Shown here in pieces: positions 1-57,784 of a DNA stretch of 64,000 nucleotides. Source of the stretch: Meghimatium bilineatum (taxonomy: Eukaryota > Mollusca > Gastropoda > Stylommatophora > Philomycidae); contig CM067317.1 in assembly GCA_034231615.1 (NCBI GenBank), forward strand, positions 49,062,282 to 49,126,281. Direction: 5' to 3'. Positions within the stretch are counted from its first letter, which is position 1; each line of letters begins with the position of its first letter. The notes below the pieces were generated by a model, which worked only from the letters and a program-made list of their open reading frames with translations, had not been told where the DNA came from and searched no databases. A program made the position numbers and the translations under genes.

Positions 1-250
1 GGGGACTTTTAATGTTTTATATCTATTATGTTGCGTTATTTGTTTAACAATGACAATTGATAATACGCATTTGAGATATTTGAACCTAGGAAAGAAAATA
101 CTCTTCTTCTGCTGGTGTAATCAAAGGTTCTTCCCTTGTGTTGTTATATTCAAGCGGGGTCTCACATTGTAAAACATGAAGGGGGCTTTTAATGTTTTAT
201 ATCTATTATGTTGAGTTATTTGTTTAACAATGACAATTGATAATACGCAT
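1..250. repeat. 180-bp tandem repeat, left end (cut by window)
   Basis: About 1.4 units of the 180-bp repeat are visible. The first bases repeat again at 181. The last unit ends at 247-250, the mirror of 9757-9760 in the right arm. The array must continue to the left of the window. Confidence 0.9.
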
Positions 251-950
251 AATATGAGACATGGCTAAGAAGAGTGTACCAAGTTTAACACGGGAAAATG
301 TTTGCCAGTTAATCACGAAATATGAAGTAGTATAGAGGGTTAAAATTTATGGAATGACCTCTTTTGTGGTGTTGAAAATTATTGTGCTGGGTGGTTAATC
401 TAACTCATATAACAAAAATGTTCTCAGTATATTCACACTAGCTTCTATCACATTCTACCATGTTTAATATTTTCTTAGTATGTTCTCACTAGGCTCTGCA
501 ACTATTTTCTCACTCCGCGCTTTAGCCATAGTCGCTGGGGGGTCTCTGTATGAGCTTCAACTATGTTCTACCATATTATTAGTATGGTCTCGCTAGCTTC
601 TAATATTGTCATCTTTGGTCCAATATATTCTTAGTATATTCTCGGTAGGTTCTTCAATTATGTTCTCAGTCCCCACTTCAATTATGGTCTCTCTCTTTCA
701 AGTTATTTTTCTCCACCAACAGTTCTCATAATAACATATATCCCACACCGCAAACGTCATGTTTATAAGTTTTCTAAATTAGCAGATCACATGAAACCAC
801 ATTTCACCACTTTTACACTAATCCACATAGCGTGTTTGACAAGTTTTTTCTTTGTGGACCACAATAATTTAGCACTTTACACAAGAACACAACCAGCTTT
901 TCTTGACTTACATGGTAAATTGTTCTATTTGTATGTACCAACATGCTTGA
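251..950. other. Non-coding part of left arm
   Basis: No ORF of note. Between about 412 and 697 there is a degenerate internal repeat built from words such as TTCTCAGTATA, TATGTTCTACCAT and CTAGCTTC, spaced some 30-60 bp apart. The same sequence is mirrored at 9310-9595. Confidence 0.6.
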
Positions 951-1202
951 CTAGCTTATGACCCCAAACCATGATGGGGTTTCTAATTTTATCTTGGTCT
1001 GTGTATAACCCTTGTATAAATCAGTTCTGGGCGCAGCAGGTCTACCTATAACGAATATATAGAGATCGAAGTTTCTGTTCTTCTTGATCTGTGGATAACT
1101 TCGGAGTTCTGTACCAGTCAATAACTTGAACCTCTGTAGTTTATAGAAGGTTTCTTTGTAACAAGACAAAGCATATACTACAACGAAACAGACAATACAC
1201 AT
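951..1202 (-). CDS. Small membrane-anchored ORF, left copy
   Basis: Same 83-residue protein. Here the frame is open five codons further upstream of the ATG because the left arm has one extra base. The common ATG is the more likely start. Confidence 0.4.
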   Translation of the reverse strand: MCIVCFVVVYALSCYKETFYKLQRFKLLTGTELRSYPQIKKNRNFDLYIFVIGRPAAPRTDLYKGYTQTKIKLETPSWFGVIS

Positions 1203-1281
1203 ATACAAATATAACAATGATTAAACCCGAACCATAAAGACGTGACAGACATTAATTTTTTTCCCAGAGATATAAAACATA

Positions 1282-1287
1282 TTTATT
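1282..1287 (-). terminator. Poly(A) signal AATAAA, left arm
   Basis: Mirror of 8722-8727, on the minus strand. Confidence 0.4.
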
Positions 1288-1351
1288 TATGATTCGCGTA
1301 CATTTTTCCAAAATAATTAAGAAAGAAAAAAAAGGTTCATGGTATAATTGA

Positions 1352-1489
1352 CTATTCATAAAAACGAAGCACAGTTGGTTGTAGTATTCGTCTCGTGATT
1401 GGCTTCTTCTTTTTCTGTTCTGGTTGGTTGTGGGTTGCTACAGGCGTCTCAGGTACATATGTGGGTTTGTAGTCGGACGGGCGATACAT
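1352..1489 (-). CDS. Small basic ORF, 45 residues, left copy
   Basis: Mirror of 8520-8657, equally open. Preservation in both arms is weak support only, because the arms are nearly identical overall. Confidence 0.35.
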   Translation of the reverse strand: MYRPSDYKPTYVPETPVATHNQPEQKKKKPITRRILQPTVLRFYE

Positions 1490-1507
1490 CTCTAGATTAC
1501 CATAATA

Positions 1508-1834
1508 CTACTCTGTGGTTGTAGACATTTTGTTGGCTGTATTAGCAACTGTGTTTGATGCTGGAGCAGTTGAATCGTGTTTTGTGTCAAAAACACCACA
1601 CACTCTATCAAATTCTTTCAGAATGACCTCTCGGAGGTCTACGAGGTCTACAAAATCTTGACGACTCATTGTGATGCCTGTTCTAGTTGGATACTTTATA
1701 TTTGCATCACCATAGTAGCGCCGAACATGGATAAGTGGTCTCTTGAATGATGTTACGGCTACAGCATTAACACCATCACCTAATGGTTTTATAATATCAT
1801 TGGCTCTGGAAAAATCGGTAGTTGAGGAACTCAT
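1508..1834 (-). CDS. PC4/SUB1-like coactivator, left copy
   Basis: Same 108-residue protein as the right copy. The upstream region differs by one base just before the ATG (the complement of AATAATTAGG here, AATAAGTAGG on the right). The duplicated ACTGTCATTTCAATA box is kept. Confidence 0.65.
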   Translation of the reverse strand: MSSSTTDFSRANDIIKPLGDGVNAVAVTSFKRPLIHVRRYYGDANIKYPTRTGITMSRQDFVDLVDLREVILKEFDRVCGVFDTKHDSTAPASNTVANTANKMSTTTE

Positions 1835-1984
1835 ATTCCTAATTATTGAAATGACAGTACACCATATTGAAATGACAGTTCATTTTCCCAGTGTATGACT
1901 GTGAAACGTGGAAATATAAGCGGCAGTGGCACACCAAGCCCTTTTAACATTAATAGAGCAAGAAAAAATGGTGTGTTAGTCAAC

Positions 1985-3299
1985 TTAATCATTGGGCTGG
2001 CTCAAAGCTTTTTTGAAATGATGAGGTCTGTCTAAAGTGTAAGCCTGACTATTATTTCTTCCCTGTTCGTAGTGATCTATGATCTTACGTCTATGGCTGC
2101 TATCAAGCACTGGTGAAATGACCGACTCAAGCCCCTTGACCCGCCTTTGAAACCGTTCCCGGTCTAAAGCAAAATAACTTCTTGTACCATGATGATCTTC
2201 AGCCACAAAAATATAAGTAGTTATCAATTTACCACCTGTAGCAAAATGAACCTGTAGAGTAAACAAAAGGATTATCCATTAGCTCGGATTGTTACAGTTA
2301 CTTATAGGTTATCACACTTAAGAAAAAAAGTTCGCATTAGCTGTACGGGCATATTATTATACACTAGTTACCCCACCACGAATATAATCCTACACGGTGT
2401 AGTGATATCATAGGAAGAAAAAGTACCACAACAAAATAGTCTCTGTTCGGTAATGCTATTATTATTTTTTTTTCCAAAGGTTAGCCTAAACACAAACGAC
2501 TAAACCCCAATTACGACCTTACAACAACAACCAATATATATGTATACATACACATAATACCTTTCTACTACCCTGTTTTCTTTCAGTTCCTGAGACAGCG
2601 TGACAACGGGCGATGGTAGTGGTAGAATAATCACGCTCCCATTTAGCATTAATCTGACTAAGTGATGGTAAACATGATTCTAGACTATTGGGCCCTGACT
2701 CGCCGGCTAGCTGAATGGTTTTTGTCTCTGATGATGGGTCTGATACGGCTTCACTTCTGGGTTTAAAGAGCGTGGCTAGCGTTAAAGACGAATTAAAGAC
2801 AGAGCAGCTTATCGGGGACATCGACATATCTTCATTGTCTGACCACCCATCACTGTCTTCATTACTACCAACGCCCTCAGTTGCCTCAGAAGCTGAACAC
2901 CAAGAAAAAAGGACCCCAAGTGGACATCTATCGATCTGCATTTTCACTGGCGATGTTGGTCGTATCGGTTTTTCGTTGTTGGAATTTAAAAGGCACTAAT
3001 GATGGAGAAGCCACACCTACCAGCTGCCTACGGGTAATGTTAGTGTCTATAAGAGTGAGGTGTATTATAGGGTTTGTGTGCCGCCTTCAACATTAACCGC
3101 TACCAGTAATAATCTGCCGAACTAGCTAAACTCACCGGCACCGCATAAACAATAGCTAAACATATAGGGTAGCTTGTTATGGGGTGGTACCTGAGCGATA
3201 CATAGTGAAAATTTTAGTAATGTGTAACCTATACATAAAGGATGAAAAAAGGCTAACCTTCGTCATTGTCTTAATCATGCGCACCTCTGGGAATGACAT
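1985..3299 (-). CDS. Probable three-exon gene of unknown function, left copy
   Basis: Mirror of the right copy. Exons read 3299-3258, 2995-2561 and 2251-1985 on the minus strand, with the same splice signals and open frames. The stop and all four splice sites are preserved. Exact retention of introns in both arms argues against the element being a processed cDNA copy. Confidence 0.5.
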
Positions 3300-3363
3300 C
3301 TCAGCACGGGCTATAAATACGAAAGCATATGATTCTGATACTAACAAACGAGCAAACACCTAG

Positions 3364-3372
3364 TTTTATATA
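3364..3372 (-). promoter_or_regulatory. TATA box before three-exon gene, left arm
   Basis: Mirror of 6637-6645, upstream of the left copy on the minus strand. Confidence 0.45.
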
Positions 3373-3969
3373 CGAACCAGCTACACCAATCGACTGTATT
3401 GCACTATTGAAGCACAACCGAATAGGCAATACAGGTTTGGTACTGTGCACACATTTGGAGTAACCCATTCATCCCATTGGGTGATGTGTGTATATTTGTA
3501 TTACCAAACATTAAAAAAAGCATACGTTATCGGTACTTACTAATAGAAACTACCGGAACTTTGTCATTTTGAAGAATGACTTATGTAAGTAATGTTGTTA
3601 ATATCTGAATAGGTTGTTTGTTATTCTAACAGGATTTTCGATCAGTCTTGTTTTTGTCTCTTCTTCAGACATGTGTTAACGGGCACATTCTCTACCTTTT
3701 CTATGGTATTTTGATGTTAAATTTAATGTCTGACATGTGTGAAATTCTATAGGGTCTTGGTTGTTGGTCCGTTTTGGTAGTTGCCAGCATGTGGGCGTGG
3801 AAACATGTTGGTGTAAATGTGAATACATTTGTGTAATTTTTGGTGTGTATAGATACACTAACATCCCGGTGATATATTGGGGTCTTATTTATTACTATTG
3901 TTGTGGTCGTTGTTTATGTATATTGTTTGAGCTGTGTATGTATAGCCTGAATATGAGTTAGGGCTAACT

Positions 3970-4683
3970 ATGTTTGGTATCTGCTTTGGAATTGGATTAT
4001 TTACGCAGTCCATCTATTCTCCACAGACCAAGACGTCCACCAAAACCTACCGGTGTGTTCAATGCTTGAAACCATTCAGTCGCCTTTACACACTGCACAG
4101 ACATACACAAGATCTTCACCTTAAAAAAAGACATAACTGTAATGTTTGTGTTAATGTTTACACAGACGCTTCAACATTAAGACAGCACAGGCAGAAGTGT
4201 CATACGCCCCAATTAGTAACAACGGATGGCACTTTTAAACCTAGCGAGGGGCATCATAGTAATTTAACACCAACCAAGAACATGATACTAGTTGATCCCC
4301 AGGTGGTCGAAGCCTTGCTGTATAAAACAGTCTATAAACCCCCTGATTCTTTAACTTATTCTATGGGTGAGTTGGACCAAGAAATGCGGGCGGTTTTAGT
4401 TCGTGGTGATTTAACCAATCACGAAAAATCTAGACTATACCAAAAAGCATTACAACAGTATTTGAATCGACTCAGTCAATACAAAAACACACCTCTGAAG
4501 CTATTAGAGAGCACGCAGTGTTCGGTACCAAGTGCCTCAATACAGAAAGATGAAGAACTAACGGAGAAAATTCCAGAGAAAGTCGAAGTGATGCCTAAGA
4601 CGCCACGACTTCAACATAGGCGGGCATCTAAAAGAACAAAAAGTAAAACAATGGACAAAAGTCTGATTTGGGATAAGTGGTAG
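3970..4683 (+). CDS. Two-finger C2H2 zinc-finger protein, left copy
   Basis: 237 residues, reading towards the axis. Finger 1 has C29, C32, H45 and H50; finger 2 has C57, C60, H73 and H78 (both C-x2-C-x12-H-x4-H). They are joined by a short LHLKKRH linker. Residues of about 105-165 form a predicted helical segment with the pattern LDQEM, RGDL, EKSRLYQ and ALQQYL. The last 30 residues are basic (RRASKRTKSK), like a nuclear localisation signal. AG acceptors after codons 13 and 18 leave open that the true start is in an upstream exon. AATAAA follows the stop near 4764. A DNA-binding or regulatory role is inferred from the fingers. The segment resembles, from memory only, proteins encoded by repeated elements in invertebrate genomes. 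Confidence 0.8.
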   Translation: MFGICFGIGLFTQSIYSPQTKTSTKTYRCVQCLKPFSRLYTLHRHTQDLHLKKRHNCNVCVNVYTDASTLRQHRQKCHTPQLVTTDGTFKPSEGHHSNLTPTKNMILVDPQVVEALLYKTVYKPPDSLTYSMGELDQEMRAVLVRGDLTNHEKSRLYQKALQQYLNRLSQYKNTPLKLLESTQCSVPSASIQKDEELTEKIPEKVEVMPKTPRLQHRRASKRTKSKTMDKSLIWDKW

Positions 4684-4882
4684 AAAAAACTGTAGAAGGC
4701 AACGCCCCATTACACAACAAATTGTCGACTGTTCAAACAAATATGATACTTATATAACATTAATAAAAAATAATAATAATAATAAAACCACAACGATGTT
4801 GTTGTATTTTATCTGTATTTGTGTATTTGTGTGTGTGTGTGACTATATGTAAAAAAAAAGATTGCTCATAACATAAAACTAG

Positions 4883-5124
4883 GCCGGTTTCCCCCCCTAG
4901 CACGGGATCCCGTGTAACACGGGGGTCTTTCATCATGTATCTACACCGGATCCAGCGCTGCACGGGCCCGTGTAACACGGGATCCCGTGTAGGTCCAAGA
5001 TGATAAAACCCATGTTACACGGGATCTCGTGTTACACGGGCCCGTGCAGCGCTGGATCCGGTGTAGATACATGATGAAAGACCCCCGTGTTACACGGGAT
5101 CCCGTGCTAGGGGGGGAAACCGGC
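4883..5124. other. Palindrome axis with nested CACGGG/CCCGTG dyads
   Basis: The axis is a GC-rich island in AT-rich DNA. Perfect dyads CACGGGATCCCGTG lie at 4901-4914, 4976-4989 and 5093-5106, and CACGGGCCCGTG lies at 4961-4972 and 5035-5046. A one-mismatch copy is at 5018-5031. Some are separated by TAA or TTA. The unpaired loop is 4992-5015. A run of seven C or G followed by the complement of GGCCTAG flanks the island on each side. Clustered identical dyads at a head-to-head junction suggest binding sites for an origin- or terminus-binding protein; that role is inference. Confidence 0.7.
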
Positions 5125-5325
5125 CTAGTTTTATGTTATGAGCAATCTTTTTTTTTACATATAGTCACACACACACACACAAATACACAAATACAGATAA
5201 AATACAACAACATCGTTGTGGTTTTATTATTATTATTTTTTTTTATTAATGTTATATAAGTATCATATTTGTTTGAACAGTCGACAATTTGTTGTGTAAT
5301 GGGGCGTTGCCTTCTACAGTTTTTT

Positions 5326-6039
5326 CTACCATTTATCCCAAATCAGACTTTTGTCCATTGTTTTACTTTTTGTTCTTTTAGATGCCCGCCTATGTTGAAG
5401 TCGTGGCGTCTTAGGCATCACTTCGACTTTCTCTGGAATTTTCTCCGTTAGTTCTTCATCTTTCTGTATTGAGGCACTTGGTACCGAACACTGCGTGCTC
5501 TCTAATAGCTTCAGAGGTGTGTTTTTGTATTGACTGAGTCGATTCAAATACTGTTGTAATGCTTTTTGGTATAGTCTAGATTTTTCGTGATTGGTTAAAT
5601 CACCACGAACTAAAACCGCCCGCATTTCTTGGTCCAACTCACCCATAGAATAAGTTAAAGAATCAGGGGGTTTATAGACTGTTTTATACAGCAAGGCTTC
5701 GACCACCTGGGGATCAACTAGTATCATGTTCTTGGTTGGTGTTAAATTACTATGATGCCCCTCGCTAGGTTTAAAAGTGCCATCCGTTGTTACTAATTGG
5801 GGCGTATGACACTTCTGCCTGTGCTGTCTTAATGTTGAAGCGTCTGTGTAAACATTAACACAAACATTACAGTTATGTCTTTTTTTAAGGTGAAGATCTT
5901 GTGTATGTCTGTGCAGTGTGTAAAGGCGACTGAATGGTTTCAAGCATTGAACACACCGGTAGGTTTTGGTGGACGTCTTGGTCTGTGGAGAATAGATGGA
6001 CTGCGTAAATAATCCAATTCCAAAGCAGATACCAAACAT
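5326..6039 (-). CDS. Two-finger C2H2 zinc-finger protein, right copy
   Basis: Translated identically to the left copy over all 237 residues. I noticed one silent G/A difference in the penultimate lysine codon (AAG left, AAA right). Both copies are intact, so neither has visibly decayed since the arms were formed. It reads towards the axis and is divergent from the three-exon gene starting near 6710. The 670-bp gap between the two starts is the likely shared promoter region. Confidence 0.8.
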   Translation of the reverse strand: MFGICFGIGLFTQSIYSPQTKTSTKTYRCVQCLKPFSRLYTLHRHTQDLHLKKRHNCNVCVNVYTDASTLRQHRQKCHTPQLVTTDGTFKPSEGHHSNLTPTKNMILVDPQVVEALLYKTVYKPPDSLTYSMGELDQEMRAVLVRGDLTNHEKSRLYQKALQQYLNRLSQYKNTPLKLLESTQCSVPSASIQKDEELTEKIPEKVEVMPKTPRLQHRRASKRTKSKTMDKSLIWDKW

Positions 6040-6636
6040 AGTTAGCCCTAACTCATATTCAGGCTATACATACACAGCTCAAACAATATACATAAACAAC
6101 GACCACAACAATAGTAATAAATAAGACCCCAATATATCACCGGGATGTTAGTGTATCTATACACACCAAAAATTACACAAATGTATTCACATTTACACCA
6201 AAATGTTTCCACGCCCACATGCTGGCAACTACCAAAACGGACCAACAACCAAGACCCTATAGAATTTCACACATGTCAGACATTAAATTTAACATCAAAA
6301 TACCATAGAAAAGGTAGAGAATGTGCCCGTTAACACATGTCTGAAGAAGAGACAAAAACAAGACTGATCGAAAATCCTGTTAGAATAACAAACAACCTAT
6401 TCAGATATTAACAACATTACTTACATAAGTCATTCTTCAAAATGACAAAGTTCCGGTAGTTTCTATTAGTAAGTACCGATAACGTATGCTTTTTTTAATG
6501 TTTGGTAATACAAATATACACACATCACCCAATGGGATGAATGGGTTACTCCAAATGTGTGCACAGTACCAAACCTGTATTGCCTATTCGGTTGTGCTTC
6601 AATAGTGCAATACAGTCGATTGGTGTAGCTGGTTCG

Positions 6637-6645
6637 TATATAAAA
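6637..6645 (+). promoter_or_regulatory. TATA box before three-exon gene, right arm
   Basis: TATATAAAA lies 65-73 bp upstream of the inferred ATG at 6710, a usual TATA-to-start distance for a short 5' leader. It faces away from the axis and is the clearest core-promoter motif in the arm. Confidence 0.45.
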
Positions 6646-6709
6646 CTAGGTGTTTGCTCGTTTGTTAGTATCAGAATCATATGCTTTCGTATTTATAGCC
6701 CGTGCTGAG

Positions 6710-8024
6710 ATGTCATTCCCAGAGGTGCGCATGATTAAGACAATGACGAAGGTTAGCCTTTTTTCATCCTTTATGTATAGGTTACACATTACTAAAATTT
6801 TCACTATGTATCGCTCAGGTACCACCCCATAACAAGCTACCCTATATGTTTAGCTATTGTTTATGCGGTGCCGGTGAGTTTAGCTAGTTCGGCAGATTAT
6901 TACTGGTAGCGGTTAATGTTGAAGGCGGCACACAAACCCTATAATACACCTCACTCTTATAGACACTAACATTACCCGTAGGCAGCTGGTAGGTGTGGCT
7001 TCTCCATCATTAGTGCCTTTTAAATTCCAACAACGAAAAACCGATACGACCAACATCGCCAGTGAAAATGCAGATCGATAGATGTCCACTTGGGGTCCTT
7101 TTTTCTTGGTGTTCAGCTTCTGAGGCAACTGAGGGCGTTGGTAGTAATGAAGACAGTGATGGGTGGTCAGACAATGAAGATATGTCGATGTCCCCGATAA
7201 GCTGCTCTGTCTTTAATTCGTCTTTAACGCTAGCCACGCTCTTTAAACCCAGAAGTGAAGCCGTATCAGACCCATCATCAGAGACAAAAACCATTCAGCT
7301 AGCCGGCGAGTCAGGGCCCAATAGTCTAGAATCATGTTTACCATCACTTAGTCAGATTAATGCTAAATGGGAGCGTGATTATTCTACCACTACCATCGCC
7401 CGTTGTCACGCTGTCTCAGGAACTGAAAGAAAACAGGGTAGTAGAAAGGTATTATGTGTATGTATACATATATATTGGTTGTTGTTGTAAGGTCGTAATT
7501 GGGGTTTAGTCGTTTGTGTTTAGGCTAACCTTTGGAAAAAAAAATAATAATAGCATTACCGAACAGAGACTATTTTGTTGTGGTACTTTTTCTTCCTATG
7601 ATATCACTACACCGTGTAGGATTATATTCGTGGTGGGGTAACTAGTGTATAATAATATGCCCGTACAGCTAATGCGAACTTTTTTTCTTAAGTGTGATAA
7701 CCTATAAGTAACTGTAACAATCCGAGCTAATGGATAATCCTTTTGTTTACTCTACAGGTTCATTTTGCTACAGGTGGTAAATTGATAACTACTTATATTT
7801 TTGTGGCTGAAGATCATCATGGTACAAGAAGTTATTTTGCTTTAGACCGGGAACGGTTTCAAAGGCGGGTCAAGGGGCTTGAGTCGGTCATTTCACCAGT
7901 GCTTGATAGCAGCCATAGACGTAAGATCATAGATCACTACGAACAGGGAAGAAATAATAGTCAGGCTTACACTTTAGACAGACCTCATCATTTCAAAAAA
8001 GCTTTGAGCCAGCCCAATGATTAA
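6710..8024 (+). CDS. Probable three-exon gene of unknown function, right copy
   Basis: I infer exons 6710-6751, 7014-7448 and 7758-8024. Intron 1 (6752-7013) begins AAG|GTTAGC and ends CATCATTAG. Intron 2 (7449-7757) begins AAAG|GTATTA and ends TTACTCTACAG. Both are phase 0 and the frame stays open, giving about 247 residues. Exon 2 is acidic and serine-rich, a low-complexity region (NEDSDGWSDNEDMS) typical of regulatory proteins. Exon 3 looks like a compact folded domain (TYIFVAEDHHG, YFALDRERFQRRV). A TATATAAAA lies 65-73 bp upstream of the ATG. I do not recognise the family. Exons 2 and 3 could instead be separate short ORFs. Confidence 0.5.
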
Positions 8025-8174
8025 GTTGACTAACACACCATTTTTTCTTGCTCTATTAATGTTAAAAGGGCTTGGTGTGCCACTGCCGCTTATATTTCCA
8101 CGTTTCACAGTCATACACTGGGAAAATGAACTGTCATTTCAATATGGTGTACTGTCATTTCAATAAGTAGGAAT

Positions 8175-8501
8175 ATGAGTTCCTCAACTACCGATTTTTC
8201 CAGAGCCAATGATATTATAAAACCATTAGGTGATGGTGTTAATGCTGTAGCCGTAACATCATTCAAGAGACCACTTATCCATGTTCGGCGCTACTATGGT
8301 GATGCAAATATAAAGTATCCAACTAGAACAGGCATCACAATGAGTCGTCAAGATTTTGTAGACCTCGTAGACCTCCGAGAGGTCATTCTGAAAGAATTTG
8401 ATAGAGTGTGTGGTGTTTTTGACACAAAACACGATTCAACTGCTCCAGCATCAAACACAGTTGCTAATACAGCCAACAAAATGTCTACAACCACAGAGTA
8501 G
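8175..8501 (+). CDS. PC4/SUB1-like coactivator (ssDNA-binding), right copy
   Basis: 108 residues. Residues of about 28-78 match the layout of the PC4 C-terminal domain. A basic strand (PLIHVRRYYGD) is followed by a glycine turn and the GITMSRQDF strand-helix, then a helix (LVDLREVILKEF). PC4/SUB1 dimers bind single-stranded DNA and act in transcription and repair; viral and transposon versions often coat replicating DNA. The first 25 and last 25 residues are serine/threonine-rich tails. Two copies of ACTGTCATTTCAATA, 21 bp apart, sit just upstream of the ATG (8130-8165). The assignment rests on motif layout, not on a search. Confidence 0.65.
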   Translation: MSSSTTDFSRANDIIKPLGDGVNAVAVTSFKRPLIHVRRYYGDANIKYPTRTGITMSRQDFVDLVDLREVILKEFDRVCGVFDTKHDSTAPASNTVANTANKMSTTTE

Positions 8502-8519
8502 TATTATGGTAATCTAGAG

Positions 8520-8657
8520 ATGTATCGCCCGTCCGACTACAAACCCACATATGTACCTGAGACGCCTGTAGCAACCCACAACCAACCAGAACAGAAAAAG
8601 AAGAAGCCAATCACGAGACGAATACTACAACCAACTGTGCTTCGTTTTTATGAATAG
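8520..8657 (+). CDS. Small basic ORF, 45 residues, right copy
   Basis: ATG to TAG lies 18 bp after the PC4-like stop, in a different frame. It is proline- and lysine-rich (EQKKKKPITRR) and ends VLRFYE. It may be a separate small protein on the same transcript or a 3' exon; no family is recognised. The AATAAA at 8722 follows. Confidence 0.35.
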   Translation: MYRPSDYKPTYVPETPVATHNQPEQKKKKPITRRILQPTVLRFYE

Positions 8658-8721
8658 TCAATTATACCATGAACCTTTTTTTTCTTTCTTAATTATTTTG
8701 GAAAAATGTACGCGAATCATA

Positions 8722-8727
8722 AATAAA
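8722..8727 (+). terminator. Poly(A) signal AATAAA, right arm
   Basis: AATAAA lies 65 bp after the 45-residue ORF and would serve a PC4-like/45-residue transcript. The mirror lies at 1282-1287. Confidence 0.4.
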
Positions 8728-8804
8728 TATGTTTTATATCTCTGGGAAAAAAATTATGTCTGTCACGTCTTTATGGTTCGGGTTTAATCATTGTTATATT
8801 TGTA

Positions 8805-9056
8805 ATGTGTATTGTCTGTTTCGTTGTAGTATATGCTTTGTCTTGTTACAAAGAAACCTTCTATAAACTACAGAGGTTCAAGTTATTGACTGGTACAGAA
8901 CTCCGAAGTTATCCACAGATCAAGAAGAACAGAAACTTCGATCTCTATATATTCGTTATAGGTAGACCTGCTGCGCCCAGAACTGATTTATACAAGGGTT
9001 ATACACAGACCAAGATAAAATTAGAAACCCCATCATGGTTTGGGGTCATAAGCTAG
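8805..9056 (+). CDS. Small membrane-anchored ORF, right copy
   Basis: 83 residues from ATG. The first 15 residues (MCIVCFVVVYALSCY) form a short hydrophobic segment, like a signal anchor. The rest is basic, with RSYPQIKKNRN and GRPAAPRTDLYKGY. It is the outermost ORF of the arm. A 1-bp deletion lies just upstream compared with the left arm, so only the frame from this ATG is shared. Function unknown. Confidence 0.4.
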   Translation: MCIVCFVVVYALSCYKETFYKLQRFKLLTGTELRSYPQIKKNRNFDLYIFVIGRPAAPRTDLYKGYTQTKIKLETPSWFGVIS

Positions 9057-9756
9057 TCAAGCATGTTGGTACATACAAATAGAACAATTTACCATGTAAG
9101 TCAAGAAAAGCTGGTTGTGTTCTTGTGTAAAGTGCTAAATTATTGTGGTCCACAAAGAAAAAACTTGTCAAACACGCTATGTGGATTAGTGTAAAAGTGG
9201 TGAAATGTGGTTTCATGTGATCTGCTAATTTAGAAAACTTATAAACATGACGTTTGCGGTGTGGGATATATGTTATTATGAGAACTGTTGGTGGAGAAAA
9301 ATAACTTGAAAGAGAGAGACCATAATTGAAGTGGGGACTGAGAACATAATTGAAGAACCTACCGAGAATATACTAAGAATATATTGGACCAAAGATGACA
9401 ATATTAGAAGCTAGCGAGACCATACTAATAATATGGTAGAACATAGTTGAAGCTCATACAGAGACCCCCCAGCGACTATGGCTAAAGCGCGGAGTGAGAA
9501 AATAGTTGCAGAGCCTAGTGAGAACATACTAAGAAAATATTAAACATGGTAGAATGTGATAGAAGCTAGTGTGAATATACTGAGAACATTTTTGTTATAT
9601 GAGTTAGATTAACCACCCAGCACAATAATTTTCAACACCACAAAAGAGGTCATTCCATAAATTTTAACCCTCTATACTACTTCATATTTCGTGATTAACT
9701 GGCAAACATTTTCCCGTGTTAAACTTGGTACACTCTTCTTAGCCATGTCTCATATT
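9057..9756. other. Non-coding part of right arm
   Basis: Mirror of 251-950. It holds the same degenerate repeat (9310-9595) and no convincing gene. It separates the outermost small ORF from the 180-bp array. Confidence 0.6.
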
Positions 9757-10477
9757 ATGCGTATTATCAATTGTCATTGTTAAACAAATAACTCAACATA
9801 ATAGATATAAAACATTAAAAGCCCCCTTCATGTTTTACAATGTGAGACCCCGCTTGAATATAACAACACAAGGGAAGAACCTTTGATTACACCAGCAGAA
9901 GAAGAGTATTTTCTTTCCTAGGTTCAAATATCTCAAATGCGTATTATCAATTGTCATTGTTAAACAAATAACGCAACATAATAGATATAAAACATTAAAA
10001 GTCCCCTTCATGTTTTACAATGTGAGACCCCGCTTGAATATAACAACACAAGGGAAGAACCTTTGATTACACCAGCAGAAGCAGAGTATTTTCTTTCCTA
10101 GGTTCAAATATCTCAAATGCGTATTATCAATTGTCATTGTTAAACAAATAACTCAACATAATAGATATAAAACATTAAAAGCCCCCTTCATGTTTTACAA
10201 TGTGAGACCCCGCTTGAATATAACAACACAAGGGAAGAACCTTTGATTACATCAGCAGAAGAAGAGTATTTTCTTTCCTAGGTTCAAATATCTCAAATGC
10301 GTATTATCAATTGTCATTGTTAAACAAATAACTCAACATAATAGATATAAAACATTAAAAGCCCCCTTCATGTTTTACAATGTGAGACCCCGCTTGAATA
10401 TAACAACACAAGGGAAGAATCTTTGATTACACCAGCAGAAGAAGAATATTTTCTTTCCTAGGTTCAAATATCTCAAA
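9757..10477. repeat. 180-bp tandem repeat array, right end
   Basis: Four units with an exact 180-bp period start near 9761, 9941, 10121 and 10301, at about 98-99% identity by eye. Each contains an AT-rich part and a stretch that includes GTGAGACCCCGCTTG. The array forms the outer boundary of the palindromic element; after 10477 the sequence changes to AT-rich DNA without the repeat. Confidence 0.92.
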
Positions 10478-10880
10478 ATACACGTGATTATACGAATAAT
10501 TATTTGTATATAATAATAATTTATAATATTACTAATAATATGCTTTTTAACATAAATATGTTTCTAAATACAAAAACGCTGTATAAGTAACAGAAAAAGT
10601 TCTCTGCTTATAACACACAACATATGTAAAGAGAGAGAGAGAGAGAAAGAGCGAGAGAGAGAAAATAGTCTTAACGCTCGTTTTAAAGAAACCCGCACAC
10701 TAGTTTCAGTGTGAGCGTGGTTATCTGATTAATTATCACCCGCTGGGCTTCCATGCGCTGACCACGGACTAAATTGAGATACACCGGGTTTTAATGGTTT
10801 GCAGCTGTTCGGCTTACCTGACCTCGGCCATCGTTATGCTACCAGCTTTAGTTAAATAGATGTTAGTTTTATTTTCAATG
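10478..10880. other. AT-rich flank with GA microsatellite
   Basis: Immediately outside the 180-bp array. It contains a TAATAAT-rich stretch (10495-10550) and a (GA)n run at 10630-10672. No gene seen. Confidence 0.6.
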
Positions 10881-10889
10881 TGTATTTAT

Positions 10890-11092
10890 ATAAAGCTTGC
10901 TACATAGGCATATATTTAAACGGGTTCTTCATATATTTCGTTGAACGTGTTGAATTGTTTGTTTCTTGGTTTAATTTATATGGAAATACCATAAAGCTTG
11001 CTACATAGGCATATATTTAAACGGGTTCTTCATATATTTCGTTGAACGTGTTGAATTGTTTGTTTCTTGGTTTAATTTATATGGAAATAACA
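10890..11092. repeat. 101-bp direct duplication
   Basis: Two adjacent copies beginning TAAAGCTTGCTACATAGGCA at 10891 and 10992, nearly identical. Confidence 0.85.
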
Positions 11093-11664
11093 TTTCACGG
11101 CCATTCATTAGACACCACACACGCCTGTTTTATAAATAAACCAATACAACGCATGGTTTAAATGTGGGTGCGATAGTCCACTAATCTGAACGAGACAAAA
11201 TTTCTGGTGTGGAAAAGTTTCTATGGAAATACCATTTCACGCCCATTCGTTAGACACCACACACACATGTTTTATAAATAAACCAATACAACGCCTGGTT
11301 TAAATGTGGGTGCGATAGTCCGCTAATCTGAACGAGACAAAATTTCTGGTGTGGAAAAGTTTCTTAATTAGAATGTTGAGGTCGACACAAGTTCAGCTGA
11401 TGTATGTGTCATTTTCTTTATCTTGGCTTATCAGTCTAAAGGTGAAGCACAGGTTACACAAATTGGCCTGTTTTATAAATAAACCAATACAACGCATGGT
11501 TTAAATGTGGGTGCGATAGTCCGCTAATCTGAACGAGACAAAATTTCTGGTGTGGAAAAGTTTCATAATTAGAATGGTGAGGTCGACACAAGTTCAGCTG
11601 ATGTATGTGTCATTTTCTTTATCTTGGCTTATCAGTCTAAAGGTGAAGCACAGGTTACAAAAAA
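11082..11664. repeat. Complex tandem duplication (~140 bp and ~100 bp modules)
   Basis: A module containing AACGCATGGTTTAAATGTGG and ending GTGTGGAAAAGTTTC occurs at about 11082, 11223 and, shortened, 11467. A second module starting near GAGGTCGACACAAGTTC follows the second and third copies (about 11365 and 11564). No coding sense recognised. Confidence 0.75.
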
Positions 11665-11869
11665 CCACACACACACACATTTTAATTCTCTAACACATAC
11701 TCCACACATAATAGCAGTACCAATGCTAGTTCTTTGACCGGTTTAAACCATAGCTAAATAACGCAGTGGAAAATTTTCAGCGGAAAAAACCGGGATCCGC
11801 GCGCCCCGAACCGGGCCCGGGTGGGGTATCTCGCGCCGCCCCATCCTACTGGCTGACAATCTGGTGTGT

Positions 11870-12165
11870 TGGTGTGTTGCTAACAATACTTTCTTCTTTG
11901 AACCATCTAAATGTTGCGCATTGGTGCGCAACAATACTTTCTTCTTTGAGTCATCTAAATGTTGCGCATTGGTGCGCAACAATACTTTCTTCTTTGAGCC
12001 ATCTAAATGGGGCGCAACAATAATTTCTTCTTTGATCCATCTAAATGTTGCGCGTTGCGTGCGCAACAATACTTTCCTCTTTGAGCCATCTAAATGTTGC
12101 GCGTTGTTGCGTGCGCAACAATACTTTCCTCTTTGAGCCATCTAATGTTGCGCGTTGTTGCGCAA
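11870..12165. repeat. ~45-bp array with a hairpin in most units
   Basis: About six units with TACTTTCTTCTTTGAGCCAT, each followed by an inverted repeat (TTGCGCA-TTGG-TGCGCAA type, variable loop). Open frames on both strands here are products of the repeat and should not be read as genes. Confidence 0.8.
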
Positions 12166-13615
12166 ATATGCATCAAGTCATGCGTATATAACTACTTACA
12201 AGTTTAATTATGTTCATACGTGAAGGTGGATATTATATGAGTTTATCTTATACAGAAAACAAATAAATCCAGATAATGGATGTTCTCAGTCTTAGTCCAG
12301 ATAATGGAGTCTCGGTACCAGAAAAGGAAATAAATAATTAACAACACTCTAACATGTCACTTATGCTGCGAGATGTAGATAGAAAGTTTTTGTCCACTTC
12401 TCATTAGCAGCAGTGATAAAATAGTAATGCTGAAATCGGATACGTAAGGCCGAAGTGCATATATATCGTAACCAGGCTCAAAATCTTTACAAGATATTAT
12501 GTTTTCCAAACTACATCCTGACAACATACAGGAGTTTAAGAGCGAGTATTTAGAAGAAATATTACACAATTTTTGTTAGGTCCTGTAATTTGTTATTGAG
12601 AAATGGATAAATGAATTAACGCGAAACGGATATAACAAACTCTGTAAACGGATATAATACACGTTATAACACATTTTAACGAATATAACAACTGTGAACG
12701 GATATAACAAACTCTTCATTTTTGACTAGCCTTTGAAGTCGACACTACGATTAATCTTTCTCCCGCCACCCCCCCTCCCCCGACTTCTTTCTGCTCTACC
12801 AATAAGCCAGTAAGTCCTACAATATGTATACAGTAAACTGTGTTTTAAACGGAGCGGCAAGGAACTGAGATATTTTCCGTTAAAGACTTGTTTCCATTTT
12901 AATGAAAGAGTGATGTGAAAAATTTAACTAGACATGCGTGTAACTGAGATAAAATATTTGTATTCGTGTAATTATTAACACTACGGTATAGGTGATGAGA
13001 GATAATCGTGTGCTGTACAGAACAATACAAATAATTGTACCTTTAAGATTGATATCGTTTTTATGTGCAGGCTCTCTCTTCAATCGTAATCTTTCATGTG
13101 AAAGGCTGGAGTGCTAACAGAATTTACACCACGGCGTAAGATCTTTCCTATTATTTTTGTGTTTTTTATTGACTGGTGAATAAAACTATTAATAAATGAC
13201 CATTGAAAATCATAGCAATATTTGGAGTGGCCTAACACACTGATGATGCACACAGTCCCGTTAAATCAAAGTTCGCGCTTGAGTATAAGAGCCAATAAGA
13301 GCCAAATCATAATAAACTTTGCAGTATCTAGCGTACTGATACAGAGAGTGTCTCGCACTACCAAGGTAGATGTTCAAACGTAACCGCATGAAAATGTACA
13401 ACCTTACTGACCAGAAAGTAAATGACAACTTTCTGAACGTATTTATATTGTCCAGAAATTCATTACAGCAATAAATATTGGTTTGGTTGCTATATTCTCA
13501 AACGGATATGCTACCAACAACAGTAAAATTTGATATTACTACCTTTTGATGTTTTCGTGGGACAAACTAAACATCAATTCCTTTTTTCTGAGTGACTTTG
13601 TTCACAAAATTCATG
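12166..13615. other. No gene recognised
   Basis: Unique-looking AT-rich DNA. It contains a minus-orientation remnant of interspersed family A near 12500-12550 (complement of CTCCTG..TTGTCAGGATG), a small repeat of AACGGATATAACAA (12620-12715) and C-rich runs near 12765. No convincing exon. Confidence 0.5.
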
Positions 13616-14395: not shown

Positions 14396-15202
14396 TTAGT
14401 TATGTCCTTGATTATGAGTTCGTAGATGGCTAATAAGCCCTATTCGAGCTGTAAATGTCCCTGGACAGTTTGGACATGGAATGACGACTGTAGACGGATC
14501 TTGGTCTATCCGTGACTTTCTAGCTGCTCTCCGCTGTTGAGTTGCTGCATTTCTTTTCTTTTCACAAGATGATGCGCTCTTTTTTATTTTAGAACGCCAT
14601 GTAGATCTATTTTGTGCAAGTTCTTCCCATGTATCGTGGTCTATTTCAAAGGCTTTCAGTGAGTTCTTTAACGAGTCCTTGTAGCGCTTCCTTTGGCCAC
14701 CTTGAGATCGTATACCCTTCTCTAGCTCACCATAGAGAAGTATCTTTGGCAGACGATGGTCTGGCATACGTACCAAATGACCTGTCCAACGAATCTGTGT
14801 CTCCATCAGGATCGTGTCAATGCTTGGGATACCAGCTCTATCAAGGACAGTGGTATCTGGAATCTTGTCTTGCCATCTGATGTTCATAACTTTTCTGAGA
14901 CAATTTGTATGAAAATGATTGAGTTTTTTCACATGACGTCTATACACAGTCCATGTTTCACTAGCGTATAGCAGCACTGGAAGTACCACTGCTCTGTAAA
15001 CAACGTATACATTATTTCCTAGGACAGCCTTACACAAGACAGATCCAACTGACGTTGCAGTCATCAGTTGTTCTGCTGCTATAATGCTTATCAATGCTAT
15101 AATGCTTATCAATGCTATAATGCTTATCAAAGCAATACTGCTTATCAAAAACGTGCATGTAGAAATGCAAGAGCTTCTGGACATCTTACAGGCTCCACCC
15201 AT
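14396..15202 (-). pseudogene. LINE ORF2 C-terminus with C2H2 finger
   Basis: Open for 268 codons, but the first 45 or so are read from an 18-bp repeat. The conserved part has AVVLPVLLYASETWTVY, CLRKVMNIRWQDKIP, IRWTGHLVRMPDHRLPK, LYGELEKG and KRYKDSLK. It ends in CPNCPGTF..L..H...H, a terminal C2H2 finger found in some LINE ORF2 proteins. The endonuclease and RT palm are missing, so this is a 5'-truncated copy with an unusually well-preserved 3' end, perhaps a recent insertion. Confidence 0.8.
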
Positions 15203-15270
15203 GCATGATCGGAAGCAATAACAAAGGCATTCATTAATGATTTGTCTTTAGTGTTTTTAGTTTTACATCA

Positions 15271-34987: not shown

Positions 34988-35844
34988 ATTTATATATCTA
35001 TCAATCTAGTCTAAATAGAGATTTGTGAGTAAAACCTCATTACATGACGATGTTCCAAAACTTAACCATCTTTACCTGTAGCTATCTTTCTCTATCTTTC
35101 GTTATTTTTCACAATCTGTCCAGTCTTTCCTACCCAGCGTTTCTATCCATCTTGAATTTTTCCTTCAACTCTCCACCACCTGCTTTATGTTTTGCCAGAA
35201 TTCCTACCTTTTTCTGTCGGTAAAACTGTCTTCCCTGTTTATTCTTGGTAGTTTCCTTCGATCTGTGTTCTGTATAATTTCCTCTGCCTATATAATAACG
35301 TATTTCGTTCCGCTATTCTCTTTCTCGTCGGGTTACGTTCGTGCATTGCTATTTGTTTATTTTCCCTAGTACTAAAATACATGATCTGATTTTCTAAAGA
35401 GATGAAGCGGGATTGAACACTCCAAACATCCCCTTATCCACAAGTCATGCTGAAGTCGGATGTGTCAGTTCGAAAGGCGTAGCAATCACAGCAAAGCTGT
35501 AAACCGTTACACGACCAGGGCCGTATAATGTGATAACCTTAAGGAGGGAGTGTTACCGTAAACCCATATCTCAAAATAATGTTCATGTGTCTGTTTTAGT
35601 GTGTACATTTCACTATTGGTCGGCATTTTTATGAAAAATCGTGAAAGAATGGGTTTTTGTCGACTTTTGACTAAGCTCTTAACACTAAATTCTTATTAAG
35701 TTCTGATTTGTTAAGGTGGTTGGGGTTAGTCACCCCCAAACCTATTCACCCCCATATATATGGACCTGTTAGTTAGAGGAGATGGGCACCACTAGCTAAA
35801 CCTTTTGCCCACTGAAATACTACAATGGATAATCACACAAAGAA
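34988..35844. other. No gene recognised; family A remnant
   Basis: Intronic DNA. A minus-orientation family A piece lies at about 35440-35500 (TCATGCTGAAGTCGGATGTG). Confidence 0.45.
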
Positions 35845-36295
35845 CTGTATAGGTCGCTGGTGCTTTCTGTTGTGTTGTATGGTTGTGAGAGTTGGACACT
35901 CACTGCGGACATGGAGAGAATATTACAGGCTTTCGAGTATAAATGCTACAGAAGAATTCTACGAATTTCCTATAGGGAACATAAGACCAATGTGTACGTA
36001 AGAAATAAAGTAGAGATGTGTGCAGGTGTTCAGGAGCCATTGCTTTCAATAGTGAAACGACGAAAACTAGCATGGTTCAGACATGTATGCAGGCACGATT
36101 CCTTGTCAAAAACAATACTGCAGGGAACTGTCGAGGGTGGAAGAAGCAGAGGAGGTGAAAATAAAAACATGGACCGACAACATCAAGGAATTGACAGGGC
36201 TAGATATTTCCACACTCATCCGCATCGCTGAGGATAGAATTCGCTGGAGGACTCTGTGTGCTGAAGCATCCAATGTGGTACCCCTACGACCCTGA
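35845..36295 (+). pseudogene. LINE ORF2 3' end fragment
   Basis: The plus frame reads LSVVLYGCESWTLTADMERIL, AFEYKCYRRILRISYREHK, IVKRRKLAWFRHVCRHDSL, LQGTVEGGRSRG. A frameshift near 36140 moves the rest (TWTDNIKELTG, LIRIAEDRIRWR) to another frame, ending VVPLRP. It was nearly intact before the frameshift. Confidence 0.8.
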
Positions 36296-40504: not shown

Positions 40505-40985
40505 CTTTCAGCCCTCATCACTGGTTATTCTCATCACTGGTCCTCATCACTGGTGGTCTTCATCACTGGTCCTCATCACTGGTTATTCTCATCACTGGTC
40601 CCCATCACTGGTCCTCATCACTAGTCCTCATCACTGGTTATTCTCATCACTGGTCCTCATCACTGGTGGTCTTCATCACTGGTCCTCATCACTGGTTATC
40701 CTCATTACTGGTTATCCTCAACACTAGTCCTAATCACTAGTTATCCTCATCACTGGTCCTCATCACTGGTTATCCTCATAACTGATTATCCGCATCATTG
40801 GTTATCCTCATCACTGGTTATCCTCATAACTGATTATCCGCATCATTGGTTATCCTCATCACTGGTTATCCTCATCACTGGTTATCCTCATCACTGGTTT
40901 TCCTCATCACTCGTTATCCTCATCACTGGTTATCCTCATCACTGGTCCTCATCACTGGTTATCTTCATCACTGGTTATCCTCATT
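40505..40985. repeat. 16-17-bp minisatellite (TCATCACTGGTTATCC)
   Basis: About thirty units. On the minus strand it is the 3' extension of the retroelement fragment at 40986-41176. The same repeat in the opposite orientation fills 41876-42170. Confidence 0.9.
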
Positions 40986-41176
40986 TCTATCATTCTATGT
41001 AAGTGCACGTTATCACCTCTAGCATCGGCTTCTTCATTCTGTAGTAAATCAATGACTGCCCTTATCGCTTCTTGTACTGCGCAACCAGCCCCAGCATTGC
41101 CCACCACTGAGTCTGCTCTGTCGTTGCCTTTGAACCCTCCATGACAGGGCAACAAATTCATTAACAATAAATACAT
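40986..41176 (-). pseudogene. Retroelement RNase H C-terminal fragment
   Basis: The minus frame reads LLPCHGGFKGNDRADSVVG, the last block of LINE RNase H domains (usual H-x-G-I-x-G-N-E-x-A-D). The tail RAVIDLLQNEEADARGD leads straight into the 16-bp repeat. A second copy of this tail lies inverted at 41797-41880. Confidence 0.65.
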
Positions 41177-41796
41177 TGTACAATCGAGTTAGTAACGTGA
41201 CCCAATGTGTCAAATATGACGTCATCGAAAGTTGTGTATATCCGTGGTTCAGTTTACAGAGTAAATCAGGAGATTATTGTTAAGTACAGATTTAACTTTT
41301 CTTCTTTTGAGTGACCAATACGATAATCAATACAAGGTAGCTGCGTGAAACGTTAACAACAATTGTACTACGTGAAACAGTTTTTATAATCGCTTCAATC
41401 AGACACGACGGACTATAACTAAAACTAATCGGTAATGATGTGCACACAAGAAAACATTCACATTACAATATACAAAACATATTCAACGTTTCAACCAAAA
41501 GGTCTTATCAAGATTCCCAAAACACCAAAAGACGACGAATGGAAATTATCACAACAAACAAAAGTATTCAACGGAAATATGGAAATGAGATGCCGAAAGG
41601 TCAGGAAGTACATAAAAAACGTAAATTTATTTGGAAACAAAACGAACAAAAAGATGAATAAATGACGGAACAAAAAGAATAAAAAGACCACACCAACCCA
41701 GTACTAGACTTAAGAGTGGTCGGAATTGAGTCCAAAAGGCTTGAGTGTACCCAATTAAAAAATAAGACGATTTTCTAGAGCGTACCTAGGCTTAAT
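41177..41796. other. No gene recognised
   Basis: Intronic A-rich DNA between two inverted retroelement tails. Plus frames at 41435-41665 are lysine/asparagine-rich from base composition and show no domain. Confidence 0.4.
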
Positions 41797-41880
41797 AAGG
41801 GCAGTCAATGATTTATTACAGAATGAAGAATCCGATGCTAGAGGTGATAACATGCACTTACATAGAATGATAGAAATGAG
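41797..41880 (+). pseudogene. Second copy of retroelement tail
   Basis: GGGCAGTCAATGATTTATTA through CATAGAATGATAGAAATGAG matches the complement of 40978-41062 with few differences, then enters the repeat array. Confidence 0.75.
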
Positions 41881-42170
41881 GATAACCAGTGATGAGGATA
41901 ACCAGTGATGAGGAAAACCAGTGATGAGGATAACCAGTGATGAGGATAACCAGTGATGAGGAAAACCAGTGATGAGGAAAACCAGTGATGAGGATAACTA
42001 GTGATGAAGTAACCAGTGATGAGGATAACCAGTGATGAAATAATCAGTGATGAGGAAAACCAGTGATGAGGATAACCAGTGATGAGGATAACCAGTGATG
42101 AGGAAAACCAGTGATGAGGATAACCAGTGATGAAGTAACCAGTGATGAGGATAACTAGTGATGGGGATAA
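41876..42170. repeat. 16-17-bp minisatellite (GATGAGGATAACCAGT)
   Basis: About seventeen units, inverse orientation of 40505-40985. Bounded by a LINE tail on the left (plus strand) and a Penelope-like 3' end on the right (minus strand). Confidence 0.9.
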
Positions 42171-42845
42171 TCAACGGTGGTACAGGATCTGATGCGGTGA
42201 CCTGAATATCAAGAGCACCATAATGACCATCATCGTTGAAGTTTGTGGCCACAGGAGTAGGTGTTATGGGTTTGATGGCGTGATGATGGTTACAAAAGCG
42301 ATCGCTCAATCTTAAACCGGTTTCCCCGATGTACTGTTTTTCGCAGTGTTTACATATGATCATGTAAATGACATTACGGGGTTCACATGTAAAGGTCTCA
42401 TCGATGGAGAAAGTGGCCTTGGGAAATGAAATAGATCGCATCTGAACCACTTAAGGACATATATAGCAACGGCCACGTGAGCAACGTACAGTGCAAAAAT
42501 GGCTGGGAACAGAAGACTTAATTTGGCTATGGACCAAGATGTCCTTCAGTTTCTGTCGTGCCTATAAGTGACCAGAGGTAAGTTGTGGAAAGCGGCACAC
42601 GTGGCAGGATCAGACTGGAGAAGGGAATAATGTTTAAGCATGATGCATCGGACACAAGAGATATGGGGATAAAAGGTAAAAACAAGTTTAACTCTATCAG
42701 GGGAGGAGGAAGAACCCTGAGAGTTAGTCATTTCAAGTCTCGATACCTTGACTAACTCTCTGAGTTCTTCCTCCTCCTCTGAATTGTACGCATATGACAA
42801 AACAAGGGCAACGAAATTGAGTGTGAGACGTACATAGTCATATTA
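42171..42845 (-). pseudogene. Penelope-like element fragment with GIY-YIG endonuclease
   Basis: The minus frame 42800-42546 reads FTFYPHISCV, MLKHYSLLQSD, PLVTYRHDRN, the conserved linker after the RT of Penelope-like elements. After a frameshift it continues LKDILVHSQ, CSRGRCYICP, a stop, FTCEPRNVIYMIICKHC, then YIGETGLRLSDRFCNHH. The VIYMI and YIGETG pair is the GIY-YIG signature, with the downstream R-x3-H. The RT itself is absent. Confidence 0.85.
42704..42775. repeat. 27-bp imperfect hairpin
   Basis: Arms 42704-42730 and 42749-42775 are complementary with 2-3 mismatches around an 18-bp loop. It lies within the Penelope-like fragment, in the segment that encodes an acidic EEEEELRELV stretch on the minus strand. 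Confidence 0.75.
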
Positions 42846-57639: not shown

Positions 57640-57745
57640 AAAAGAGCAGCACAACGCTGGTAGTAGGACATCTAGTAGGACCTGCACTCTGCTATAAGAG
57701 AGATCCAGCGAGAGTTTGAGAATGATCGCTAAAGAAGAAGAAAGA
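57640..57745 (-). repeat. Family A fragment
   Basis: Complement of the family A 5' end: GAGAGTTTGAGAATGATCGC followed by AAGAAGAAGAAAG. Confidence 0.45.
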
Positions 57746-57784
57746 GAAGACATTCATATATCGTGACTGGCAATACACAGGCTC

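Follow-up and report, generated by a model that had tools for sequence, protein, structure and literature searches.

Extent of the palindrome

At the start of the window (the whole 64,000-nucleotide stretch of the Meghimatium bilineatum genome analysed here) lies a large palindromic element, each arm of which carries a C2H2 zinc-finger gene, a PC4-like gene and a probable spliced gene. The features are as follows.

1..12196 in the window, no strand: palindromic element, whose left end lies 2191 bp beyond the window's edge (G000:C20:49060090-49074477)
1..249, minus strand: left-arm part of a 180-bp repeat array, extending beyond the window
1508..1834, minus strand: PC4-like protein, 108 aa, matching PF02229
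1985..2251, minus strand: PPP1R15/GADD34/DP71L-like exon 2 (PP1-binding region), start taken from the predicted splice
2561..2941, minus strand: PPP1R15-like gene, predicted exon 1 (a prediction with coordinates derived by hand)
3970..4683, plus strand: C2H2 zinc-finger protein, 237 aa, left arm
4898..5108, no strand: axis, with nested ACACGGG(NN)CCCGTGT palindromes and a short asymmetric loop at about 4991-5015
5326..6039, minus strand: C2H2 protein, right-arm copy
7068..7448, plus strand: PPP1R15-like predicted exon 1, right arm (mirror of 2561-2941)
7758..8024, plus strand: PPP1R15-like exon 2, right arm
8175..8501, plus strand: PC4-like protein, right arm
9757..10477, plus strand: right-arm array of four 180-bp repeats, internal to the element
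11882..12165, no strand: tandem repeats of 48 bp in the outer end region
12166..12196, minus strand: right terminus, read inward AGTAGTTATATACGCATG...
12197..12202, no strand: 6-bp target-site duplication tacaag, with its partner directly left of C20:49060090

Comparison of window positions 1-10006 with their own reverse complement gave 99.64% identity around an axis near 5003. A previous reading of the locus, made from the sequence only, had described two near-identical mirrored arms of about 5 kb; the palindrome is confirmed, but its size was underestimated, as the full inverted repeat in the chromosome spans C20:49060090-49074477 (14,388 bp, window positions -2191 to 12196) with arms of 7.19 kb, and the window cuts the element. 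The right end had been placed at 10477, which is the edge of the internal 180-bp repeat array, the true end being 12196. The mirrored gene set was recovered for the C2H2 and PC4-like frames, present in both arms, and for the probable spliced gene, and the main genes are indeed without a stop in either arm of this copy; however, one small frame, at 951-1217, is unequal between the arms (88 versus 83 codons), with two single-base indels nearby.

Genes in the arms

The PC4-like protein matched PF02229 with an E-value of 2.9e-5 and 23.9 bits, slightly below the curated cut-off of 25. It had no relative in the protein database (one candidate), and its structure model was uninformative (mean pLDDT 42.1). 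For the C2H2 protein, a single relative, P0001, was found in the protein database at 67% identity (127 candidates), and none in the viral-contig scan.

The arm gene of two predicted exons probably encodes a PPP1R15/DP71L-like protein; the likeness to PPP1R15/GADD34 had not been recognized in the sequence-only reading. Its exon 2 matched PF10488 below the cut-off of 26.1 (E 9e-4, 19.4 bits), and the top two of four matches of the protein to the PDB were PPP1R15B (E 0.011) and DP71L (E 0.14). The predicted splice joint yields RKVHF, a candidate for the RVxF PP1-docking motif that precedes the conserved PP1-binding region in this family. With our own sequence patterns, 14 of 18 arms show the predicted intron, 309-330 bp long and placed at 2252-2560 in the left arm of this copy. 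Such an intron is unusual, as intact Mavericks were reported to have none (PMC8097293).

Ratios of dN/dS were calculated among nine left arms, excluding any copy in which the gene had a stop or indel and any pair separated by fewer than 12 changes. They ranged from 0.25 to 0.37 for exon 2 and from 0.37 to 0.56 for PC4 (small counts), and reached 1.56 in some pairs for C2H2.

A family of inserted palindromes

The element belongs to a family with dozens of copies in the genome, spread over many chromosomes. Among 150 scored matches (of 242 candidates) to the GADD34-like exon in the 1.61-Gb genome there were at least 64 minus/plus pairs, 61 of which are spaced 5.3-5.9 kb apart. Ten copies were fetched and nine analyzed, L035/L036 being dropped from all counts owing to 100 Ns and broken matching blocks; the nine complete copies are 13.1-15.0 kb long.

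All nine are flanked by an exact 6-bp target duplication and have the ends 5'-AGTAGT...ACTACT-3'; in three of them the edge was shifted by 1-2 bases by eye, and copy L037 sits in a local repeat. Since the target duplications flank both ends, the palindrome is the whole element, and the earlier suggestion that it is only the terminal inverted repeat of something much larger was discarded. Furthermore, as the duplications close every copy exactly at full palindrome length, the palindrome was inserted as such. A genome search for the end motif retrieved 96 + 94 places, compared with 1 + 3 for the backwards control. Among 100 of these places listed there were 41 pairs, 27 of them spanning 13.0-15.6 kb, and only 4 of the 27 contain a listed GADD34-like pair. 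A 6-bp target duplication together with 5'-(AGT)2//(ACT)2-3' ends is the end signature published for Mavericks (PMC8097293).

Within a copy, the two arms diverge by 0.00-0.26% (nine copies), so the copies look recent, whereas divergence between copies reaches about 9%, a figure that omits the rows for L031, which were inflated, up to 12.5%, because its axis region differs and was trimmed alike. In eight of the nine copies the two arms are sisters, and in L037 a mosaic (recombinant) boundary is present in both arms. Because copies differ by up to about 9%, the arms of one copy hardly differ and the recombinant boundary occurs in both, the arms seem to be re-copied from one arm between insertions. 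The two arms of L025/L026 are 0.13% apart, a greater distance than the 0.07-0.09% that separates them from another insertion, which indicates that arms can drift independently after insertion. Stops in the GADD34-like pairs, counted by eye, affected both arms in 8 of 64 and one arm only in 3 of 64; other damage included a C2H2 stop in the C4 copy, a deletion and a stop in PC4 in the C3 copy and, in L037, an exon 2 interrupted by an insertion. The axis loop, slightly altered, recurs in six of the nine copies, and the dimer itself therefore looks inherited, with only the arms being equalised.

Polinton relatives and missing genes

A 19.6-kb element on C12 with the same end motif, of which about 9.6 kb was read, has genes for an ATPase-like protein and an rve integrase, as well as one whose product is homologous to the C-terminal half of the C2H2 protein (42% identity); no information can be drawn from its own target duplication, which falls within a TA repeat. 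Copy L037/L038 of the palindrome holds a truncated ATPase gene of this element's type (88% of 90 residues, 90.4% of 282 bp). The ATPase had no relatives in the viral-contig scan and no match in the phage collection. The sequence-only reading was correct that this is not a complete known Polinton, but it had missed the Polinton-type ends, the target duplication and one gene domain.

PolB (PF03175) gave 19 matches in the genome, none of them inside the nine copies or on C12, and none of eight PolB loci matched the arms at the DNA level. The eight arms listed likewise lack a frame of PolB size or of capsid size, the truncated ATPase lying in one of them. No frame of integrase size occurs in the eight left arms listed, in which the longest frame, of 245 codons, is C2H2.

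Origin of the palindromes

We consider it likely that the element belongs to a family of non-autonomous derivatives of Polintons (Mavericks), which are virus-like transposons; its members are palindromic over their full length and would be replicated and integrated in trans. The earlier ideas of a head-to-head dimer and of a virus-like gene set both fit this reading. Since Polinton ends are present but no Polinton polymerase was found, the family has probably spread using machinery borrowed from its relatives; the identity of the helper and the route of replication we infer as follows. The retrovirus-type integrase of a helper Polinton would insert the palindrome, and the helper's protein-primed PolB would copy it starting at its ends. 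The displaced strand, being self-complementary, would snap back on itself as a hairpin of 7 kb, with the GC-rich axis as its closed end, and copying of this hairpin, or mismatch repair, would make both arms identical again, after which integration would fix a new, nearly perfect palindrome. Selection would keep the PC4-like, C2H2 and PPP1R15-like genes, possibly because they help with replication and with double-stranded RNA transcribed through the axis. Points that weigh against this reading are that no intact helper combining PolB with these ends came to light, that the axis loop looks inherited, that the C2H2 ratio is high in some pairs and some copies are damaged, that the PC4 and PPP1R15 profile matches fall below their cut-offs, that an intron is predicted, and that only 4 of the 27 end-motif pairs contain a listed GADD34-like pair.

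More tentatively, such elements may represent heritable self-complementary DNA satellites of Polintons, whose mobile form would be either a hairpin that snaps back or a linear palindromic DNA, possibly packaged in the capsid of a helper Polinton. Among the regulators that they bring with them would be a cofactor of eIF2-alpha phosphatase, acting to dampen the shut-down set off by their hairpin RNA, and the equalising of arms in each replication round would amount to a self-correcting genome; we regard this wider picture as possible but doubtful.

A DNA virus or element of the hairpin type, independent of Polintons and using its own replication system, integrated as head-to-head dimers and merely sharing Polinton ends, would account for the hairpin-like axis formed by the nested palindromes, for the lack of PolB matches and integrase-size frames noted above and for a gene set of its own that includes the PPP1R15-like gene. 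It is nevertheless an unlikely source, as the target duplication, the end motif, the shared gene domain and the ATPase fragment all indicate Polintons; moreover, hairpin telomeres of the parvovirus or poxvirus type are absent from the integrated ends, which read AGTAGT..., the hairpin-like sequence being central. We give still less credence to the idea that the terminal inverted repeats of a Polinton remnant lengthened within the chromosome in a foldback-like manner, the arms being kept alike by chromosomal gene conversion: the tandem arrays in the outer arms and the near-identity of the arms would suit it, but the exact duplications at full palindrome length in all nine copies and the divergence between the arms of L025/L026 argue against it. 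Near-perfect palindromes carry a recognized risk of misassembly, and the sequence-only reading had called for a fold-back artefact to be excluded, which it is, because the two flanks differ yet share a matching 6-bp duplication (in nine of nine copies, one inside a local repeat), and dozens of copies lie across many chromosomes.

Many long palindromes are fragile chromosomal sites (PMC7999016); here, a mobile family with recent-looking copies normally exists as 14-kb palindromes. Replication in trans by Polintons would make this a case of a Polinton satellite within an animal germ line, and would offer direct, datable evidence on the extrachromosomal replication of protein-primed animal DNA elements. 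The recombination boundaries common to both arms make the idea of re-copying testable by sequence alone.

Comparison with known systems

The palindromes resemble vertebrate Mavericks in the 6-bp target duplications, the 5'-(AGT)2//(ACT)2-3' ends and the virus-like size (PMC8097293). With the local Polinton-type element they have a domain of the C2H2 protein in common, and one copy also holds a piece of an ATPase gene like the one found there. Polintons, however, have short terminal repeats on a non-palindromic body, whereas here the inverted repeat covers the entire element, which has a probable intron and PC4-like and PPP1R15-like genes; PolB gave no match in the nine copies, and the eight arms listed show no frame large enough for an integrase or a capsid. 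Among the open-licence papers listed, mostly as titles and abstract starts, none describes palindromic Polintons, which is a weak basis for novelty.

Foldback transposons such as Galileo likewise have very long inverted repeats and tandem repeats, but differ in their target duplications and transposase and are not virus-like. The protein-primed linear DNA of adenovirus yields palindromic defective genomes; to our knowledge these are not integrated, not multi-copy and without conserved genes of their own, and the papers listed in our literature search name none. Adeno-associated virus (AAV) is a parvovirus and not protein-primed. Its snapback subgenomes are self-complementary defective genomes that are replicated in trans and form head-to-head dimers, but they are subgenomic particles, whereas the palindromes described here form a heritable chromosomal family (PMC8235507).

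Extent and family of the palindrome

The window lies at C20:49062282-49126281 in a 1.61-Gb genome assembly of 32 contigs (G000). Self-alignment of window positions 1-10006 with their own reverse complement gave 99.64% identity, confirming that the inverted repeat is real. The sequence-only reading had described a palindrome with ~5-kb arms, but the window truncates the element, the true span of which is larger (negative positions lie to the left of the window's start):

C20:49060090-49074477 (window -2191 to 12196), complete palindrome, 14,388 bp

Position 10477, where that reading had placed the end of the palindrome, falls inside the element, at the point where four tandem 180-bp repeats stop. 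The 180-bp repeat has 125 matches in the genome, spread across many contigs and frequently in inverted pairs.

A genome search was also made with exon 2 of the probable PPP1R15/GADD34-like gene that each arm carries (the GADD34-like exon). Because 150 of 242 candidates were scored, the resulting counts are lower bounds: among these 150, at least 64 minus/plus pairs were found by eye, with a median spacing of 5,745 bp (61 of the 64 listed pairs at 5.3-5.9 kb), and 22 scored matches remained without a partner. Ten copies were fetched and nine analyzed, the tenth being left out for its Ns. All nine are palindromes, of 13.1-15.0 kb, and whole-arm comparison, omitting the final 100 bp at the axis, revealed 0-18 substitutions (0.00-0.26%) and 1-11 indels per 6.4-7.4 kb between the left and right arms of a copy.

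Every one of the nine copies starts with AGTAGT, ends with ACTACT and is flanked by an exact 6-bp target duplication (tacaag, atcgtc, gacgat, tacatt, cacatg, agagtg, accgta, cacttg and gactgc), the printed edge having been shifted by 1-2 bases by hand in three of them. Left and right flanks are unlike each other in every copy except L037, which is inserted in a local repeat and whose target duplication is less informative. An assembly fold-back artefact, a concern raised when the palindrome was noticed, would show one flank twice; it is excluded by the differing flanks (L037 aside) and the 6-bp duplications.

Elsewhere in the window, two tandem arrays with a 16-bp unit (CCTCATCACTGGTTAT; 40696-41065 and 41795-42173) lie in inverted orientation to each other and are ~90% alike. 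Open frames at 14396-15247, 35833-36231, 52637-53155 and 57726-58370 resemble fragments of LINE reverse transcriptase, judging from their motifs, and a weak Rfam tRNA match at 49382-49454 (32 bits; no ARAGORN call) is perhaps a SINE.

Genes of the arms

In each arm the C2H2 gene points to the axis, and the PC4-like and PPP1R15/GADD34-like genes point outward. The PC4-like protein falls slightly under the cut-off for PF02229 (E 2.9e-5), as exon 2 falls under that for PF10488 (E 9e-4). A solved-structure search with exon 2 listed four entries to E 10, of which the top two were PPP1R15B (E 0.011) and DP71L (E 0.14). An RVxF-type motif, RKVHF, would span the joint of the predicted splice. This joint was sought with patterns of our own; the first set gave no product, and the second gave one in 14 of 18 arms (none from L023, L024, L026 and L032).

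Between copies, dN/dS was 0.25-0.37 for exon 2, 0.37-0.56 for PC4 and 0.30 to 1.56 for C2H2, using left arms and pairs with at least 12 changes. The underlying numbers are low, exon 2 having 6.5-10 synonymous changes in each pair. Damaged genes also occur: C2H2 has a stop in the copy on C4, PC4 a deletion and a stop in that on C3, and exon 2 an insertion in L037. By eye count, exon 2 carries a stop in 11 of the 64 listed pairs (both arms in 8, one arm in 3). A 136-codon open frame without a Pfam match lies between the PC4-like and PPP1R15-like genes of copy L021 (4407-4814; arm 3615-4022); it is listed in five of eight arms, has 91 codons in L037 and is not in the frame list of the window copy.

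Polinton-type relatives in the same genome

With up to one mismatch allowed, the end motif AGTAGTTATATAGGGATG has 96 + 94 occurrences in the genome, compared with 1 + 3 for the backwards control. Among the 100 places listed there were 41 pairs and 18 unpaired places, and 27 of these pairs span 13.0-15.6 kb. A listed GADD34-like pair lies inside four of these 27; the remaining 23 need not be palindromes. On C18, a 44.7-kb pair (21999133-22043828) encloses a GADD34-like pair and one further single copy, probably as nested or composite insertions. Two longer pairs lie 10 kb apart on C12, and the PolB profile has a match in a long open frame on C24:

C12:28295861-28315483, end-motif pair, 19.6 kb
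C12:28325535-28344854, end-motif pair, 19.3 kb
C24:19408539-19410569 (L043), PolB (PF03175) in a 1,350-codon open frame

About 9.6 kb of the 19.6-kb element was read, as both ends and two 4-kb pieces. It encodes an rve integrase (PF00665, E 3.2e-15), a DUF1280 protein and an ATPase-like protein; the last has no Pfam match and is presumably the Polinton packaging ATPase, judging from its motifs and neighbouring genes. The same element also encodes a 112-aa protein that shares 42% identity with the C-terminal half of the C2H2 protein carried by the palindrome. In their longest blocks, its ends are ~80-88% identical to those of palindrome L027 and ~70% to those of L019 and L021; its target duplication falls in a TA repeat and is uninformative. 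Furthermore, copy L037/L038 (two arms of one palindrome) holds part of this ATPase gene (88% over 90 residues, 90.4% over 282 bp). PolB has 19 matches genome-wide, none of them within the nine palindromes or on C12.

How the arms stay alike

Within the inner 4.6 kb, copies diverge by up to ~9% (distorted L031 rows excluded) and arms of the same copy by 0.00-0.23%, the two arms being sisters in eight of nine copies. In the ninth, L025/L026, the arms are 0.13% apart and 0.07-0.09% from another insertion; arms therefore drift independently once inserted. L037 is a mosaic relative to L027: over the initial 1.2 kb of the region compared, the two differ by 0.0-1.2%, and past that point by 3.5-5.6%. 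The arms of L037 match each other along the whole region (0.0%, with 0.2% in the final block), which means that the mosaic boundary is common to both, and one arm must thus have served as template for the other between successive insertions. The axis loop TAGGTCCAAGATGATAAAACCCATGTTA, or a near variant, is found in either orientation in six of the nine copies examined (absent from L029, L031 and L033), which suggests that the dimer form is inherited and did not arise at random sites.

Proposed mechanism and comparison with known systems

In the most likely cycle, the protein-primed polymerase of a helper Polinton would copy the element starting at its ends, and the displaced strand would snap back on itself as a hairpin, with the GC-rich axis as its closed end (predicted fold of 211 nt, -131.7 kcal/mol, as any palindrome would give likewise). 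Repair or copying inside the hairpin could equalise the arms, after which the helper integrase would insert the palindrome and generate the 6-bp duplication. Transcripts that continue through the axis would fold up as long hairpin RNA; speculatively, this might be a reason for carrying a PPP1R15-like gene.

In the part of the open-licence literature that was surveyed, no palindromic Polinton is described. For vertebrate Mavericks, passages of PMC8097293 name 5'-(AGT)2//(ACT)2-3' as the most frequent motif of the ends, together with 6-bp target duplications, and tie the repeated end motif to protein-primed replication; the palindromes bear the same signature of ends and target duplications. The element works like a non-autonomous Polinton, yet it is not a full member, because the PolB profile has no match in the nine copies, the eight left arms listed show no frame large enough for an integrase and, unlike that of a Polinton, its body is itself palindromic; the sequence-only reading was right that it matches no complete known Polinton. 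In form, the nearest analogue is the snapback subgenome of AAV, as portrayed in sections of PMC8235507.
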